41,322 nucleotides of DNA from Candidatus Pacearchaeota archaeon (GTDB lineage Archaea > Nanobdellota > Nanobdellia > Pacearchaeales > GW2011-AR1), in the NCBI GenBank assembly GCA_017609915.1, contig JAFCDA010000007.1:1-41322 (forward strand), in the 5' to 3' direction. This document shows positions 468 to 9,838 of this stretch, piece by piece. The translations under genes were made by a program, and so were the position numbers. The notes below the pieces were generated by a model that was not told the DNA's origin, ran no database searches, and saw only the letters and a program-made list of their open reading frames with translations. How positions within the stretch are numbered: the stretch's first letter is position 1; every line of letters begins with the position of its first letter.

Positions 468-1460
468 ATGACAAAACAAATAAAGTTTCTAAGATTAAAG
501 AATATTACAGATACTTCAAGATTTTTAGGTTACTTGCATAAGATTTATATGAAAAGAAAAACTGGGAAAAAGTTTAAAAAATTAAATTTAAATCATATAA
601 AATTTTCAAAGGGATTAGATTTAGATGTTCTTGGAATAGAATTTACTAATGTTTGTGATTTAAACTGTATATGGTGTCCATTAGATAGAATAAGAAAAGG
701 ATTTATGAAAATTGAATTATTAAAAAAAATCTTAAAAGATGTTGTTAAAAAGGAAAATAAAATAAAAAATATAGCTCTTCATCATGGAGGAGAAACTACA
801 TTACATCCAAAATTAAAAGAGATGCTTGATTTAATAAGGGAATATAAGATTAAGAATCCAAATTTTCCAAAAATTTCATTGTTAACAAATGCTAATCAAT
901 TAACAAAGGAAAAATCAAAAGCAATAATAGATTCAAAAGTTGTTGATTGGATGAGATTTAGTATAGATGGGGGAAATAAAGAAGATTTTGAGCATATAAG
1001 AAAAGGAGCAAAATGGGAAAGAGTTCTTGGAAATGTTCATAATTTTTTAAATATAAATAAAGGGATAAGTACATCTATATTTACAATATTAAAGGATAAG
1101 AAAAAATTTAGTAAAGAGTTTTTGAAGTTAGTTAGTAGGGTTGACGAACATAAAGTAGTATTTCCTCATGAATGGAGGGGGGAAATAAAAATAGAAAAAA
1201 ATAAATATAAAATTAATACAGCCTTATCAAAAAGGGAAGTTGGAGGATGTTCAAGGGCCTTTGGTAGTATGGATGTTTTGTGGGATGGAAGAATTGTTCC
1301 TTGTTGTACTGATTTAAATGGTGAGGGGGTTATTGGAAATATAAATGAAAATTCATTATTAGAAGTATTCAAGGGAAGGAGGAGAATATTTATATTAGAT
1401 AAAATGAAAAGAGGAAGAAGGTTTGAAATAAATTCCTGTAAAAATTGTCGTGAGGTATAA
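468..1460 (+). CDS. Radical SAM protein with SPASM-type C-terminus
   Basis: The protein has 330 residues. The radical SAM CxxxCxxC motif is at C63, C67 and C70 (NVCDLNCIWC), followed by a glycine-rich HHGGETTLHP segment and SIDGG, as in the SAM-binding half of the family. Cysteines 261, 279, 280, 324 and 327 near the end resemble a SPASM/Twitch auxiliary iron-sulfur domain. Such enzymes do radical chemistry on peptides or sugars; the substrate here is unknown. The acetyltransferase gene follows after one base, suggesting co-transcription in an envelope-modification unit. A TATA-like CTTTAAAAAT at 376 implies a leader of roughly 60 nt. Confidence 0.85.
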   Translation: MTKQIKFLRLKNITDTSRFLGYLHKIYMKRKTGKKFKKLNLNHIKFSKGLDLDVLGIEFTNVCDLNCIWCPLDRIRKGFMKIELLKKILKDVVKKENKIKNIALHHGGETTLHPKLKEMLDLIREYKIKNPNFPKISLLTNANQLTKEKSKAIIDSKVVDWMRFSIDGGNKEDFEHIRKGAKWERVLGNVHNFLNINKGISTSIFTILKDKKKFSKEFLKLVSRVDEHKVVFPHEWRGEIKIEKNKYKINTALSKREVGGCSRAFGSMDVLWDGRIVPCCTDLNGEGVIGNINENSLLEVFKGRRRIFILDKMKRGRRFEINSCKNCREV

Positions 1461-2815: not shown

Positions 2816-3553
2816 ATGATAAAGATATTTATAGAAAATCAAATTGCAAAAAGAACTGTGTTAGGAAGATTGCTCATGTTTTCTAATGAAGTTTTAACAC
2901 TTACTAAATTTTATTTAGGCTTTAATACATTTAGCACACTTAATCTTCAATTTACTAATTCTTGTAATTTAAATTGTAAATGGTGTGGATTAAAAAGAGG
3001 AAAAGATATAATGAGTGAAAAAACCCTAATTAAAACACTTGAAAAGATTAAAAAATATCATATAAAAAACTTAAACCTATGGTCTGGTGGAGAAATATTA
3101 ATGCATCCAAATATAATTAATCTTTTAAAAATAATAAAAAGATATAAAAATTACAAAATTACTTTACTGACAAATGGTATGTTGTTGACTCCAAGTTTAA
3201 GTAAAAAGATAATTGAACTAAATGTTCTTGACCAAATGATGTTTAGTATTGATGGTGGTTCTGGAAAAGAATGTGAAAGATTAAGATCTGGAGTAAAATG
3301 GAAAGAAATCCCCTCTGTTGTGCATATTGATGGAACAACAAGACCTCAAACAGTTAGGAAAAAAGACAATCCAAGATATCACAAATTAATAAAAGAATTT
3401 GAAAAAATAAAAGGAACTCCAGTTTTATTAAACACTTCTTTTAATGATAAAGGAGAACCAATTGTTTGTTCTCCTCAAGATTCTTTAAAATCATTTAAAA
3501 AAACTAATTTAGATTATTTAGCAAGGGGTAATTTTTTAGTAAAGAAACAGTGA
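2816..3553 (+). pseudogene. Radical SAM N-terminus fused to a carbamoyltransferase C-terminus
   Basis: Residues 1 to about 165 are a radical SAM half: CxxxCxxC at C50, C54 and C57, then LWSGGEILMHPN and FSIDGG, closely parallel to the gene at 468. At about residue 166 (near nt 3311) the sequence switches to the C-terminal end of the NodU/CmcH carbamoyltransferase family: VHIDGTTRPQTV, NPRYHKLI, GTPVLLNTSFN, GEPIVCSPQDSLKSF and LDYLARGNFLV. Both parts are incomplete: the SPASM end and the carbamoyltransferase catalytic N-terminus are missing. The frame is open across the junction. This is best explained by a deletion joining two neighbouring genes, or by an assembly chimera. A functional fusion is possible but less likely. 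Confidence 0.7.
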
Positions 3554-3616: not shown

Positions 3617-3910
3617 ATGAATAAAAAAGGCATTGTATTGGACCTAACAGGATTTTATGTATTTGAGTCAGTTCCAACTAAATTTGGAAATGGTGCTCAT
3701 GTATTGATTTCTAAAAAATATATTGAAAAAAGAATTAAAATTATTGTTGGAAAACCAACTAAAGTTAGAAATAATAAGATAGAAATTGATTTTTTTGGTA
3801 ATGAAATTTTAGAAAGAATTCCTAGTAAATTTGGGACAGGATTTCATATTATTGTTCCTAAGGAACATATTGGAAAGAAAATTAAATTAATTGTAAGGAG
3901 TGGAAGATGA
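3617..3910 (+). CDS. Tandemly duplicated DUF2080-like small protein
   Basis: The 97 residues contain two copies of one unit. Copy 1 is roughly residues 8-45 (ESVPTKFGNGAHVLISKKYI, then KRIKIIV). Copy 2 is roughly 52-94 (ERIPSKFGTGFHIIVPKEHI, then KKIKLIV). The G-x-H/A-x-x-(V/I)-PK pattern resembles DUF2080, small AbrB-like archaeal proteins often called transposon-encoded; that link is from memory of the family. The fold may be a DNA-binding beta barrel formed from both halves. Its stop overlaps the start of the large surface protein by ATGA, so the two are probably translated together. Confidence 0.6.
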   Translation: MNKKGIVLDLTGFYVFESVPTKFGNGAHVLISKKYIEKRIKIIVGKPTKVRNNKIEIDFFGNEILERIPSKFGTGFHIIVPKEHIGKKIKLIVRSGR

Positions 3911-6447
3911 AAAAAGAAAAACTATTATTGATATTAATTTTGTTAGTAATTTTATGTGTGATATTTTTGCCAATCACCAGTGCACAACCTACTATAAATT
4001 TTACATTACCAACCCCATCAAATGGAACAACAGTAAATTCTGATTCAATTTATGTTAATCTAACAGGACAAGGAGGAGAACATTATTCATTTGTAGATTT
4101 TGATAATGATAATGTTTTATGGATGAGGATGGATTATATTAATCAATCAAATGGTGTTGGAGCACTAGTTTATGATAATTCTAGTTATGCTAATAATGCA
4201 ACTGCTAAGGGAGATGCTAATCAAACACCAGATGGTAAATTTGGAAAAGCATATGTTTTTGATGGAACTACTGATTTCATCACAATACTAGATCATACTT
4301 CTTTAGATTTGAATACAAGTTTTACTATTTCTATTTGGATTAAGCCTGGAGCAGATATGGGCGCTGGAAGTGGTGATAGGATGATTATTGGAAAAGAATC
4401 TGCTACCCCATGCACTTATGCTTGGTCAGTTTATATGGATGATGGAAAAATAAGACTAAAAGCTGGTTCTATTCCTTGTGGTGCAAGCAGTGCAATATCT
4501 AATGATTTATTGGCCTTAGATGCATGGACTCATGTAGTTGTAATGTATAAAAAATCAACAAGCCAGCAAATATTTTATATAAATGGAACTTATGATAAAA
4601 GTTCTACTTCAAATGTTTATAGTATAAATAAGAATTCTCAAAATGTTACAATAGGAATGAGAACTGGTGGAGGTATGGCTTTTAATGGAACAATAGATGA
4701 TATTATTATTATAAATAGAACATTAGATGCAAATGAAATTTCTTCTTTATATAATTCAACTGCTTCACAGTATTATCATAATTTTACAGATTTAGATGAT
4801 GGGCAACATCATTTTATAGGTTATGTAATAAATGGTTCTGAATTAAATGAATCAGAAAGATATGTGGCTAGTGATGGAAATTCTCCAAATGCGGTAATCG
4901 GACAAAACACTTCTCAAGTTGAATATTCAAGTGAGGGGATAAATATTAACTGGACAGCTACAGATGATAATGGGATTAATTATACAATCCTTAATATAAC
5001 TTATCCAAATAATACAATATTATATAATTCAACTTCAAGTTCTGGAGAGATTAATTTAACAAGCACTGCTAACTTGTCAGTGTTAGGTATTTATAATATT
5101 ACTTTATGGGCAAATGATAGTTCTGGGAATTCAGGTATAACAAGCACTATTTTTAGTGTAAATGATACTATTTATCCTAATATAACTTTAATCTCGCCGG
5201 CAAATGATATATCTTCAACAACTGATGCATATAATTTTACTTTTAATGTTTCAGATAATAATACTATCTCAAATTGTAGTTTAATTTTAGATGGAAACAT
5301 TATTAATACCTTAACTAGTGTAAGTAAAGCTCCTTCAACTATGGGCATGTATAATTCTTCATTAAGTGTTGCAAGTCATACTTGGAGTATAAATTGTACT
5401 GATGTAGCAAACAATGAAGAAAATAGCTCTGAAAGAACATTAACTGTCTCTTCTTCTACTTCTTCGACTCCTTCTACACCAGGAGGAAGTGGCGGGACTT
5501 TTGTTAAAGAATGTGAAACAGATGAGGATTGTAATGAAAGCTATTCATGTTATAATAAACAATGTGTGAAATTATTTGATGTTAAAATAATAAAAGTTGA
5601 TTCTCCAATAGAACAAGAACAATTTTTTAATTTTACTTATTTAGTAAAAGCAATGGCTGAGATTAACAGTGATGTTATTATAGATTTTTGGCTTGAAAAA
5701 AATAAGGAAAAAATAACTTCTGGTTTTGATACTATTTATTTTGGTAGTTTTGAAGAAAGAACAGAAAACTCTCAATTATTTTTGCCAGGAAATATCGATG
5801 ATGGAATTTATGATTTTTATGTTCAAGCAAGTTATGAAAATTATAAAGCAAAAGCTTTAAGAACAATACAAGTAGGGGAAAGTTTTGAAGAACTTCAAGA
5901 AATTAAACCTTTTCCAAAATCAATTTATTATTTAATTATTTTAATTCTTTTAATCTTAATAACAATTATTTTAATTCTTTACATTAAAGCTAGAAAGGAA
6001 TCACACCATAGTTTAATAAGAGGTGTTGGGATTATTGGGTTTAGCTTAATTGGAATTTTATTTTTTGGGCAAAATAATATCACTGGAAATGTTACTGGTT
6101 CTAATTTAATTAAAAATTGGTTTAGTTTTTTATATTTCTTTTTTATTATTGGGATCCTGGGTTTGTTTGTTTTTTTGCATAGAAAAAATACTAAAAAAAT
6201 AAATATAATTAAAATGAAAAATGAATATGGATACTCTAATCTTAAAGATTTAATTAATAAAAAGGTTTATTGTGATGGAGATTATATTGGTAAAGTTAAA
6301 GATGTTATTTTAAATGATTGTAAAATTGAAACTTTAAAAATAAGGCCTTCTAAAAAATCTAAAAGAAAGGGCATTATTTTAAAATATAAACATGTAGATA
6401 ATGTTGGGGATATTGTAATTATAAATAATAAATTATATAAAATTTAA
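3907..6447 (+). CDS. Large surface protein: LamG, Ig-like repeats, three membrane spans, PRC-barrel
   Basis: The protein has 846 residues. It has a signal peptide (about 1-26, ending TSA), a LamG/concanavalin-type domain (about 70-285, with FDGTTDFI, FTISIWIKP, WTHVVVMY and GTIDDIII), and two Ig-like segments (about 330-515). A short Cys-rich EC-x6-C-x4-SC-x4-QC motif (near 535-555) and another beta-rich region follow. Three hydrophobic spans lie between about 675 and 765. The last about 70 residues look like a PRC-barrel (VYCDGDYIGKVKDVIL, ending NVGDIVIINN). Many N-x-S/T sequons sit in the outer part. It may bind glycans outside and connect to the cytoplasm through the PRC-barrel; this is inference. 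Confidence 0.75.
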   Translation: MKKEKLLLILILLVILCVIFLPITSAQPTINFTLPTPSNGTTVNSDSIYVNLTGQGGEHYSFVDFDNDNVLWMRMDYINQSNGVGALVYDNSSYANNATAKGDANQTPDGKFGKAYVFDGTTDFITILDHTSLDLNTSFTISIWIKPGADMGAGSGDRMIIGKESATPCTYAWSVYMDDGKIRLKAGSIPCGASSAISNDLLALDAWTHVVVMYKKSTSQQIFYINGTYDKSSTSNVYSINKNSQNVTIGMRTGGGMAFNGTIDDIIIINRTLDANEISSLYNSTASQYYHNFTDLDDGQHHFIGYVINGSELNESERYVASDGNSPNAVIGQNTSQVEYSSEGININWTATDDNGINYTILNITYPNNTILYNSTSSSGEINLTSTANLSVLGIYNITLWANDSSGNSGITSTIFSVNDTIYPNITLISPANDISSTTDAYNFTFNVSDNNTISNCSLILDGNIINTLTSVSKAPSTMGMYNSSLSVASHTWSINCTDVANNEENSSERTLTVSSSTSSTPSTPGGSGGTFVKECETDEDCNESYSCYNKQCVKLFDVKIIKVDSPIEQEQFFNFTYLVKAMAEINSDVIIDFWLEKNKEKITSGFDTIYFGSFEERTENSQLFLPGNIDDGIYDFYVQASYENYKAKALRTIQVGESFEELQEIKPFPKSIYYLIILILLILITIILILYIKARKESHHSLIRGVGIIGFSLIGILFFGQNNITGNVTGSNLIKNWFSFLYFFFIIGILGLFVFLHRKNTKKINIIKMKNEYGYSNLKDLINKKVYCDGDYIGKVKDVILNDCKIETLKIRPSKKSKRKGIILKYKHVDNVGDIVIINNKLYKI

Positions 6448-6487: not shown

Positions 6488-6928
6488 ATGAAAATTAAAA
6501 AAGGGGATTTAACAACTTTGGTGGTGATGATAGTAATCATTCTCCTTTTAATTTATTTTATTCCAAAGTTTACTGGAGACGCAGTTCAATCAGTTCCTTG
6601 TGTTGATAGTGATGGCGGAAAAATATATACTGTTCAAGGAACTGTTCAGAAAGGAGTTGCAGTTCAAGTTACAGATTATTGTTTAGATGAGACCCAATTA
6701 AGAGAGCACTATTGTTCAGATAATCAATTTAAAGCTCTTGAAGTGGATTATTACAATTGTCCAAATGGGTGTTCAAATGGTGCTTGTGTTCAAACTTCAT
6801 CAAGTCAACCAGGTGGAACATTAGGTGCAGAAAAACCATTTGTAAGTGCAAGTAATGTTTGGTTTTGGGTAATTTTAGCAGTTGTGCTAATAGTTTTATT
6901 CTTAATCATTAAAAAACTTAAGAGATAA
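6488..6928 (+). CDS. Small bitopic membrane protein with Cys-rich ectodomain
   Basis: The protein has 146 residues: an N-terminal hydrophobic segment (about 10-28), an ectodomain with six or more cysteines (PCVD, DYCLD, HYCSD, YNCPNGCSNGACV) that probably form disulfides, a Ser/Gly/Pro linker, and a C-terminal span starting SNVWFWVIL and ending in KKLKR. The last span matches that of the protein at 2147-2719. It follows the LamG protein on the same strand by 40 nt with a TATA-like TTTATAAAGG between, so it may have its own promoter. Function unknown. Confidence 0.65.
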   Translation: MKIKKGDLTTLVVMIVIILLLIYFIPKFTGDAVQSVPCVDSDGGKIYTVQGTVQKGVAVQVTDYCLDETQLREHYCSDNQFKALEVDYYNCPNGCSNGACVQTSSSQPGGTLGAEKPFVSASNVWFWVILAVVLIVLFLIIKKLKR

Positions 6929-6951: not shown

Positions 6952-7245
6952 TTATTTAAAAAATTTAGAAACTTTTTCTAAAAATCCTTCCTTAGTTTTT
7001 ATTTCAGAAATAAGAATTGGTTTATTTTCTTCATCAATAACTTTATAGGTTATTTGAGGTTTTTCTTTCATTAAAGGAGCTTTAGCTGCAAGTCTTTTAT
7101 TTGCAATTTCAATTGCTTTATTAATGGAAATTTTTGAATATCCTTGGTTTATTAAAGAAAATCTTAAAGAATCTACAGTATATCCTTTTGAAAGATTTTT
7201 TAGTATATAATCTGCTAGTTGTTGAATATAATTTGTTAGTTGCAT
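6952..7245 (-). CDS. Hypothetical protein with helical N-terminal module
   Basis: The 97-residue protein is predicted soluble. Residues 4-50 (LADYILKNLSKGYTVDSLRF, then INQGYSKISINKAIEIAN) have the look of a small helical bundle in which a Gly-Tyr turn precedes each helix, similar in feel to UBA-like or HTH-like modules. The C-terminal half is charged. It is convergent with the upstream membrane protein gene and divergent from the glycosyltransferase gene. No family is recognised. Confidence 0.55.
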   Translation of the reverse strand: MQLTNYIQQLADYILKNLSKGYTVDSLRFSLINQGYSKISINKAIEIANKRLAAKAPLMKEKPQITYKVIDEENKPILISEIKTKEGFLEKVSKFFK

Positions 7246-7406
7246 AATTTTTAAACAACTTATAAGTTTAAAAATATAGTTGAGATAAGATGTAATATTT
7301 TAAAGATGTTACAAAATATAAATCTTATATGATAATGAAACCCATTCATAATATGCTATATTAAGATATAAAAATCTTTATAATGAAAAAGAACTAATTT
7401 TAAAAA

Positions 7407-8252
7407 ATGAAAAAGCCAATTGTTTCTTTGATTTTAGCTACTTATAATAGTTCTAAATTTTTAGACGAACTCTTAAACTCTTTAAAAAAACAGACTTTTA
7501 AAAATTATGAACTAATAATAATAGATGATTGTAGTCAAGATAATACAAGGGAGATTTTAAAGAAAAGAGGTTATAAGTTTCTTAAAAATGAAAAAAGAAT
7601 GGGTTGTACAAAAACCTTAAACAAAGCGATAACTATTTCTAAAGGAGATTTTATTTTTAGGCTCGATCATGATATGGTTTATGACCCTAATTGTATAAAA
7701 GACATGGTAAAAACCATTACTTCAAATAAAGATGTAGGAATTGCTGGTTCTCGTTCTTATTATTATAAAGACAAAAATAAAATAAGGTCTTTTGGAATAA
7801 ATCTCAATCTTATAACAAGTAAAGTGCAAATTATAGGTAAAGATGAAATAGACAATCATCAATTTGATCATATAAAGAAAATAGATTCTATTAGTGGAGG
7901 AAATATGATGATTAAAAGAGAGGTTTTTAATAAAATAGGGTTATATTCTAAAGATTATTTTCTTTATTATTCAGACTTAGATTTTTGTTACAAAGCTAAA
8001 AATGCAGGATATAAAACTGTTCTTTCTAAAGCTAAAGCTTGGCATAAAAAACAAAAGAAAGACGTACTTAATACAAATCAACTGACTTATCTTTTAAGAG
8101 ATAGATTAACCTTTATGAAAAAAAACTCAAAGAATTATTATTTGTTTTTGATTATTTTCTTGTTTTTTTATATTCCTTATAATATTTTAATAAACCCTAA
8201 ATTTATTAAGGCATTTATTAAGGTATTTTTTAATAAGAGAAAAATGTTTTAG
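7407..8252 (+). CDS. Family 2 glycosyltransferase
   Basis: The 281-residue protein is a GT-A fold enzyme. It starts with PIVSLILATYNSSKFLDELL and LIIIDDCSQDNT, carries the metal-binding DHD at 87-89 (FRLDHDMVYDP), and has the acceptor-side SGGNMMIKREVF and YYSDLDFCYKAKNAGYK segments typical of rhamnosyl- or GlcNAc-type GT2 enzymes. A hydrophobic C-terminal stretch (about 245-262) may tether it to the inner face of the membrane. It probably adds a sugar to a lipid-linked or surface glycan. A TATA-like CTTTATAATG about 30 nt before the ATG suggests a nearly leaderless transcript. Confidence 0.88.
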   Translation: MKKPIVSLILATYNSSKFLDELLNSLKKQTFKNYELIIIDDCSQDNTREILKKRGYKFLKNEKRMGCTKTLNKAITISKGDFIFRLDHDMVYDPNCIKDMVKTITSNKDVGIAGSRSYYYKDKNKIRSFGINLNLITSKVQIIGKDEIDNHQFDHIKKIDSISGGNMMIKREVFNKIGLYSKDYFLYYSDLDFCYKAKNAGYKTVLSKAKAWHKKQKKDVLNTNQLTYLLRDRLTFMKKNSKNYYLFLIIFLFFYIPYNILINPKFIKAFIKVFFNKRKMF

Positions 8253-8368
8253 AATTCTATTTAGGGTTTTTTCATTACCTCTATGAATAATAATGAGGTG
8301 AATATAATGAAAGCTATTCAGATAATAAAGCTTTAAAATTTATAGGTATTGCAGATAAATAAAACAAA

Positions 8369-9838
8369 TTAATACTCAACCATTAATTTCTTATTTTTAT
8401 TATAAAACTTTATAGCATGTTCAAGTTTTTCTTTTGAAATTGCATAAACTGTCATTATTTTATCCCCATTTTTTATTTTTTGATTAGCTTTTTTATGAAG
8501 GTAAATTCCTGATGCTTTATCTTGAGGACAACCTGCAAATTTTGCAAGTTCATTTATTAATTTATTATCATAACTTTTTATTTTTTTATTGGATTTCGCA
8601 TATATTGTGTGAGTGTATTTTCCTGGTTTAAATTTTCTTATTTTTCCTTTTTGTGCTTTTATTATTTGTTCAAATTTTTTAAATGCTTTTCCTGAATCAA
8701 GAATTTCCTGTGCTAATATCTTTCCCTTATTTTTCTTTGCTTTTCCTGCCATTTCTAATAATCTTCCTGCAAGCATAACTGATTTTTCTTCTAAATCTTT
8801 TGGCCCATCTTCTCTTTTTAAAATTTTAATTACATCATTTATTTCTAAAAATGGACCTATTGCATTGCCTATTGGTTCTCTTCCATCTGTTAAAACAACT
8901 TCTAATTTTAAGTCAAATCTTTTTCCTAAACTTATAAATCTTGTTTTTAAATTATTTGCTTGTCTTTTATTTACTTTAGCTGATTTTCCATAAGGAATAT
9001 CTATTAAAACATAATTACTATCTACTGAAATTTTTTTAGAGATAATGCTTGCAAGTAATTGGGTAGTTGAATCTATTTTAACTACTCTTTCTACTTTTAT
9101 TATTTTATCATCAACAGGAGCTAATCCTAAGGCTCCTCCCCAAACTAAACAAGCATTTGTTTTTTTAATTATTTTTTTAATTTCTTTTATTGAAAAATCT
9201 ACTTTTGCTATTGTCTCTATTACATCTACTGTTGCTGCTGCAGTTGTTATTGCTCTTGAAGAAGTTTTTGGCATGACTAATCCTGCTGTAGCACAGATTG
9301 GAACTATTATTGGAGTTGTTCTATTTCCTGCAATTCCTCCAATACAATGTTTGTCAACTACTTTGCCTCTTAATTTAAGGTGTTTGCCTGTTTCTACCAT
9401 AGATTGTATTAAATTTTTAGTTTCATTTAAAGACATGCCCTTGCTGTTTAATGCAGCAATAAAAAATGCAATTTCTGCTTCTCTAAGAGCATTATGTGCA
9501 ATATCTTGAACAATTTCTTGGATTTCTTGTTTATTTAATTCTTCTCCTTTTAGTTTCTTTTTAATTAAATTAATACTTTTTGGACGTTCTGTTATTTCTA
9601 CATCTACAAAATCTCCTTTTTTTAATTTTAAATGATGGATTACAGTATTAGAAACCGCTATTTCATGAGGTTTTATTATATTTGAAATAGTATTAACAAT
9701 TGAAATAATTTTTTTATTTGCTTTTTTCACAGAAATCCTATTATCGATGTGCAAACTCATTTCTTCAGCTGTTTTTTCATGAATCATACATACAGGTCTT
9801 CCTGTTAAGAATTTTAAGATTTTTACTTTTAATTTCAT
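8369..9838 (-). CDS. deoA: AMP phosphorylase
   Basis: The protein has 489 residues, near the usual 500 of archaeal AMP phosphorylases. An N-terminal beta-barrel-like domain (1-85) precedes a thymidine-phosphorylase fold with KHCIGGIAGNRTTPIIVPI, the PKTSSRAITTAAATVDVIE signature, WGGALGLAPVDD and DIPYGKSAKV. It phosphorolyses AMP (also CMP/UMP) to the free base and ribose 1,5-bisphosphate. The next enzyme, R15P isomerase, is at 31330-32136. The third step, type III RuBisCO, is not in the window. The upstream region has ATATCTTATAA as a TATA-like box and two small hairpins before the ATG. Convergent with the GT2 gene. Confidence 0.92.
   Translation of the reverse strand: MKLKVKILKFLTGRPVCMIHEKTAEEMSLHIDNRISVKKANKKIISIVNTISNIIKPHEIAVSNTVIHHLKLKKGDFVDVEITERPKSINLIKKKLKGEELNKQEIQEIVQDIAHNALREAEIAFFIAALNSKGMSLNETKNLIQSMVETGKHLKLRGKVVDKHCIGGIAGNRTTPIIVPICATAGLVMPKTSSRAITTAAATVDVIETIAKVDFSIKEIKKIIKKTNACLVWGGALGLAPVDDKIIKVERVVKIDSTTQLLASIISKKISVDSNYVLIDIPYGKSAKVNKRQANNLKTRFISLGKRFDLKLEVVLTDGREPIGNAIGPFLEINDVIKILKREDGPKDLEEKSVMLAGRLLEMAGKAKKNKGKILAQEILDSGKAFKKFEQIIKAQKGKIRKFKPGKYTHTIYAKSNKKIKSYDNKLINELAKFAGCPQDKASGIYLHKKANQKIKNGDKIMTVYAISKEKLEHAIKFYNKNKKLMVEY

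Follow-up and report, generated by a model that had tools for sequence, protein, structure and literature searches.

A radical SAM N-terminal half joined in frame to a carbamoyltransferase end in a Pacearchaeota surface-glycan locus, probably a product of local deletion

In known carbamoyltransferases, carbamoyl phosphate is adenylated by a YrdC-like domain, while transfer of the carbamoyl group falls to a Kae1-like domain that has an iron site (PMC9633730). The open reading frame (ORF) described here resembles enzymes of the NodU/CmcH/TobZ type (O-carbamoyltransferases, PF02543 + PF16861; TobZ 3ven, GdmN 7vyj) in its last ~85 residues, which include the HxD..R.Q and NTSFN..GEP motifs, but it lacks the Kae1-like transfer domain, the first half of the YrdC-like domain and the KxR segment. 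With the radical SAM-SPASM/twitch proteins (PF04055 + PF13186) it shares the CX3CX2C motif, the GGE motif and the first four barrel strands, but it has neither the end of the barrel nor the SPASM/auxiliary cluster domain. Intact relatives of the two halves match known structures: a relative of the radical SAM half matches BtrN (4m7t), and the carbamoyltransferase of a congener (G017) matches TobZ over its full length. The arrangement also recalls the chimeric pseudogenes generated by deletion through microhomology-mediated illegitimate recombination, in which truncated neighbours are joined at a short repeat and intact parents are found in relatives. It differs from these in that the open frame survives, since the common bases share the codon phase.

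The window, i.e. the whole stretch of DNA analysed (41,322 nucleotides), is the entire contig C18 of a 521-kb draft genome (65% complete, 27 contigs) of a Candidatus Pacearchaeota archaeon, whose ribosomal protein L3 has its best match in the archaeal L3 model and whose genome size and gene content suggest one of the small-genome DPANN lineages. The ORF at 2816-3553 (forward strand) encodes 245 residues, in which, as the earlier note had read it, a radical SAM N-terminal half runs in frame into the end of a NodU/CmcH carbamoyltransferase; 85 residues of the latter are present. Pfam Radical_SAM matches residues 45-164 (E = 1.8e-15) and Carbam_trans_C residues 162-244 (E = 2.9e-31), both far beyond chance. 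The matches cover only positions 2-128 of 166 and 88-170 of 170 of the respective models, so that both break mid-model, at one shared point, and the other half of each parent is missing, again as noted earlier. The radical SAM(-SPASM) half (2816-3294) retains the CX3CX2C motif (C50, C54 and C57; 2963-2986) and the GGE motif (3086-3094). The carbamoyltransferase part (3303-3553, including the stop codon) corresponds to the latter half of a YrdC-like domain; it is 80% identical to residues 480-564 of the G017 carbamoyltransferase. There are no stops or frameshifts in the fused frame. The radical SAM half is closest to the intact gene at the syntenic position in G008, a genome of the same genus (48% identity); next, further out, comes the radical SAM gene of G168, which belongs to another genus of the same family. 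The window also contains an intact radical SAM-SPASM paralog (468-1460, forward strand; Pfam Radical_SAM and SPASM), which the N-terminal half follows, as had been claimed, at 42-45% identity (45% over residues 28-170); it is not the direct parent of the fused half. At the edge of this paralog and the hexapeptide-transferase gene paired with it lies a tRNA-Ser gene (TGA anticodon, 278-359), and a near-copy of its first bases is found ~100 bp upstream, at 181.

The similarity to carbamoyltransferases begins at KWKEIPSVVHIDG, and the joint lies within AAA TGG (nucleotides 3295-3302, forward strand). The codons of the fusion around it read AGA TCT GGA GTA AAA TGG AAA GAA ATC CCC, those of the G017 carbamoyltransferase at the same site AGA GAA AAA TGG AAA GAA GTT CCT, and those of the radical SAM gene at 468 AGA AAA GGA GCA AAA TGG GAA AGA; G-A-K-W with AAA TGG is common to three radical SAM relatives at this site. 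The fusion is identical to the carbamoyltransferase over 13 nucleotides (3295-3307) and has 7 nucleotides in common with the radical SAM paralog. Together, these identities place the breakpoint at 3295-3302, slightly upstream of the position near 3311 given in the earlier note, whose join otherwise stands. The stretch AAAATGG has one and the same codon phase in the paralog and in the G017 gene. Any exchange there therefore keeps the frame, and thus the open frame of the fusion is no evidence for selection.

Across the genus, the backbone of the locus is conserved (an AI-2E transporter, AMP phosphorylase, mostly an antiporter, and a 97-aa ORF) and the region beyond it varies. Upstream of the fusion lies a membrane-anchored ORF of 190 residues (2147-2719), with orthologs in G008 and G017 at 69% and 50% identity; the ortholog flanks the intact radical SAM gene in G008 and stands two ORFs upstream of the intact carbamoyltransferase gene in G017. 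Downstream are a tandem DUF2080 protein (3617-3910; Pfam DUF2080, 52% identity to the ortholog that follows the intact radical SAM gene in G008), a surface protein with LamG (Laminin_G_3), Big_7-like and PRC-barrel regions (3907-6447) and, at the far end of the variable slot, a secreted or membrane ORF of 146 residues (6488-6928) that is conserved in G008 and G017; all of these are on the forward strand. The 97-aa ORF (6952-7245, reverse strand) is a conserved locus marker present in 15 of 18 genomes of the genus, and an archaeal-type AMP phosphorylase (8369-9838, reverse strand; NCBIfam AMP_phos) anchors the locus throughout the genus. Between these two (7245-8372), where most congeners have a Na/H-type antiporter, the window has instead a GT2 glycosyltransferase gene (7407-8252, forward strand; Pfam Glycos_transf_2, 3.5e-32) of the type seen in the sugar clusters of G017, G008 and G168 (51-57% identity). 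A scan for promoters and terminators, based on a bacterial consensus, found no more sites than in shuffled sequence.

Both parents of the fusion are found intact in relatives. In G008, a 337-aa radical SAM-SPASM gene is flanked by orthologs of both the 190-aa and the tandem DUF2080 ORF, and the order that follows (surface protein, 146-aa ORF, 97-aa ORF) is that of the window. In G017, a 567-aa carbamoyltransferase gene lies between the 190-aa and 146-aa ORFs and adjoins a GT2 gene. In G168, intact radical SAM, GT2 and carbamoyltransferase genes are consecutive on one strand, at a locus different from the slot of the fusion. The radical SAM and carbamoyltransferase parents are natural neighbours, because they occur intact in the locus of G008 and G017 and in the cassette of G168. 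The arrangement of full-length genes side by side that the earlier note had envisaged is seen in that one cassette, with the GT2 gene in between; in the fusion's own slot it was found in none of the genomes.

We estimated synonymous divergence (dS, by the simple NG86 method, on stretches that are short and AT-rich) for each half and for genes of the locus. The fused tail against the G017 carbamoyltransferase gave 0.59, with AMP phosphorylase at 0.47 and two small neighbours at 0.38-0.69; the radical SAM half against G008 gave 0.87, with AMP phosphorylase at 0.66 and the neighbouring 190-aa gene at 0.95. Since these values are close to those of the locus genes, both halves look as if they were inherited vertically with the locus. 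In the tail, 7 changes fall on the branch of the fusion (residues before the joint excluded) versus 10 on the branch of the intact G017 gene. Family-conserved residues are retained at 16 of 17 positions in the tail, and conserved columns at 14 of 15 in the radical SAM half. Such values suggest that either the break is recent or the halves are still constrained; both fit the data.

What is left of each parent bears on what the product could do. The three cysteines C50-C54-C57 are invariant in 12 aligned relatives, and H170, D172, R176, Q178 and N206-N210 of the tail are nearly invariant. However, the Pfam match to the radical SAM barrel ends at 128 of 166 positions, with four strands before the joint in the predicted structure, so that a complete (beta/alpha)6 partial barrel is absent, as is the SPASM domain, which the 468, G008 and G168 proteins possess. 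The Kae1-like domain (Carbam_trans_N), which the full-length carbamoyltransferases of G017 and G168 carry, has no match in the fusion, and the YrdC-like domain is reduced to positions 88-170 of 170. The KxR segment is missing, the KHRE of G017 (aligned to KDRE of TobZ) lying upstream of the joint. Of two residues altered in TobZ structures, the Met of 3vf2 is absent from the fusion and the Ser of 3vf4 is retained. An AlphaFold model, computed from a shallow alignment, has four barrel-type strands and a mean pLDDT of 61.9, with values below 50 at residues 160-178 (the joint) and at the conserved residues 205-218; the low pLDDT on a shallow alignment makes this prediction weak evidence. Judged from these sequence features, the fusion product most likely has neither parental activity.

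Searches of 55 relatives, of 200 genomes from the order and of 371 from the phylum (overlapping sets) gave no second fusion of this kind. None appeared in phage records, or when GTDB species genomes and IMG/VR were scanned with sequence patterns, a method that detects close relatives only; no paper on such a fusion was found in the literature. The many homologs with exactly this fusion that would make it a real family, a possibility in the earlier note, thus did not appear in several hundred related archaeal genomes. With essential parts lacking from both halves as well, the suggestion that the ORF, if expressed, would be a new architecture finds no backing. Several candidates were rejected. 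A frame of 562 residues in G478, matched by residues 63-244 of the query, is an ordinary full-length carbamoyltransferase, the match into the radical SAM half being a chance extension, and the candidate in G488 is likewise an ordinary carbamoyltransferase. ORFs of 830-900 residues in G168, G308, G225 and G249 are carbamoyltransferases with an intein. Phage matches starting from residue 94-140 lie in carbamoyltransferase genes where annotated, and cover at most 59% of the query.

We consider the ORF to be, probably, a pseudogene of recent origin, formed by a deletion fusion in a variable locus for surface glycans. A local deletion would have left the first ~160 codons of a radical SAM-SPASM gene running straight into the final ~85 of a carbamoyltransferase gene downstream of it, with the loss of ~1.9 kb, or ~2.7 kb if a GT2 gene stood between the parents. 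The break would have occurred through the short microhomology AAAATGG, in phase in both parents, and the open frame would have arisen without selection for the fused protein. We infer that this lineage once had the two genes together, that one deletion event linked them and that the resulting protein has no activity. The parents, intact in the same locus of the two congeners and in one cassette in G168, argue for such a deletion and, with the vertical-like divergence and the in-phase microhomology, lend good support to the earlier proposal of a deletion fusion between neighbouring surface-sugar genes. On the other side, the fused frame is stop-free and unshifted whereas a decaying gene gains such lesions over time, G168 belongs to another genus and has its cassette at another locus with a GT2 gene between the parents, and the joint of the fusion is known from the assembly alone. 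In a close variant of the deletion-fusion reading, two alleles of the variable locus would have recombined, the first carrying the radical SAM gene and the second the carbamoyltransferase gene, and left a real chimeric remnant. We regard it as quite unlikely: G008 and G017 do each have only one of the two genes in the slot, but G168 has both on one chromosome, and a deletion requires one event in one genome.

It is also conceivable, though unlikely, that the contig joins the radical SAM end of one strain to the carbamoyltransferase end of another, in which case no cell would have the fusion. The source genome, a draft of 27 contigs, is 65% complete, and mixed strains are plausible because the locus varies strongly between relatives. 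However, the 7-13 nucleotides common to the joint and either parent-like gene are fewer than usual assembly k-mers, and the genes either side of the joint form one conserved locus. The junction region is single-copy: no second copy of its DNA was found in the assembly, where the best other matches are short A-rich stretches. Neither missing half was found in the (incomplete) bin, which has no N-terminal part of a carbamoyltransferase and, besides the intact 468 paralog, no second radical SAM C-terminal half. Very improbable is a functional protein of this one lineage in which a SAM-binding half-barrel and a YrdC-like tail would act together, e.g. as a carbamoyl-phosphate- or nucleotide-binding regulator. 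The intact frame, the retained CX3CX2C, GGE, NTSFN and HxD motifs and a tail that changes no faster would suit such a protein, but frame and conservation are equally expected from a recent in-phase deletion. Both halves are broken inside a fold, the KxR segment and the Kae1-like domain are gone, the predicted model is weak, and none of the other genomes searched has the fusion. A deletion fusion, our preferred reading, is an ordinary kind of gene-decay event with an instructive join. It cautions that a two-domain ORF in frame may be a deletion scar, the frame being explained here by in-phase microhomology alone. It also draws attention to a recurring gene set (radical SAM-SPASM, GT2 and carbamoyltransferase) in a variable surface locus of these small-genome archaea, where genes that are intact, split or lost can be set against one another.

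The searches also gave several observations on carbamoyltransferase genes themselves. Those of G168, G308, G225 and G249 (L112:9411-12116, L140:25-2526, L141:2917-5583 and L142:4100-6763) each contain an intein of the LAGLIDADG type, in frame and at one common site immediately behind the KxR motif, with site sequences KHRE/C...SGN/S WRPF or LHR/C...CGN/T EFMPF. The intein in L112 is matched by Pfam LAGLIDADG_3 (6.6e-7) and Intein_splicing (5.7e-5), and those in L140, L141 and L142 were recognised by eye; nothing was found on this intein in the literature. By eye, a 295-aa ORF (L112:13191-14075) between an rmlA-like nucleotidyltransferase gene and an rmlB-like dehydratase gene is a candidate free homing endonuclease. 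In two IMG/VR records (L037:6330-6890 and L036:6315-6875), a 187-aa ORF whose match is confined to the C-terminal part of carbamoyltransferases lies ~1 kb after a full-length carbamoyltransferase gene and is a possible stand-alone YrdC-like domain. The carbamoyltransferase of G471 is in two overlapping ORFs of 461 and 108 residues (L145:3358-5021), probably split by a frameshift; this gene may be decaying too, or the split may reflect a sequencing error. In Streptomyces sp. NRRL S-337 (L068:3094-6261), the carbamoyltransferase tail forms residues 970-1048 of a 1056-aa ORF, which either carries a long extension at its N-terminus or was called from too early a start.
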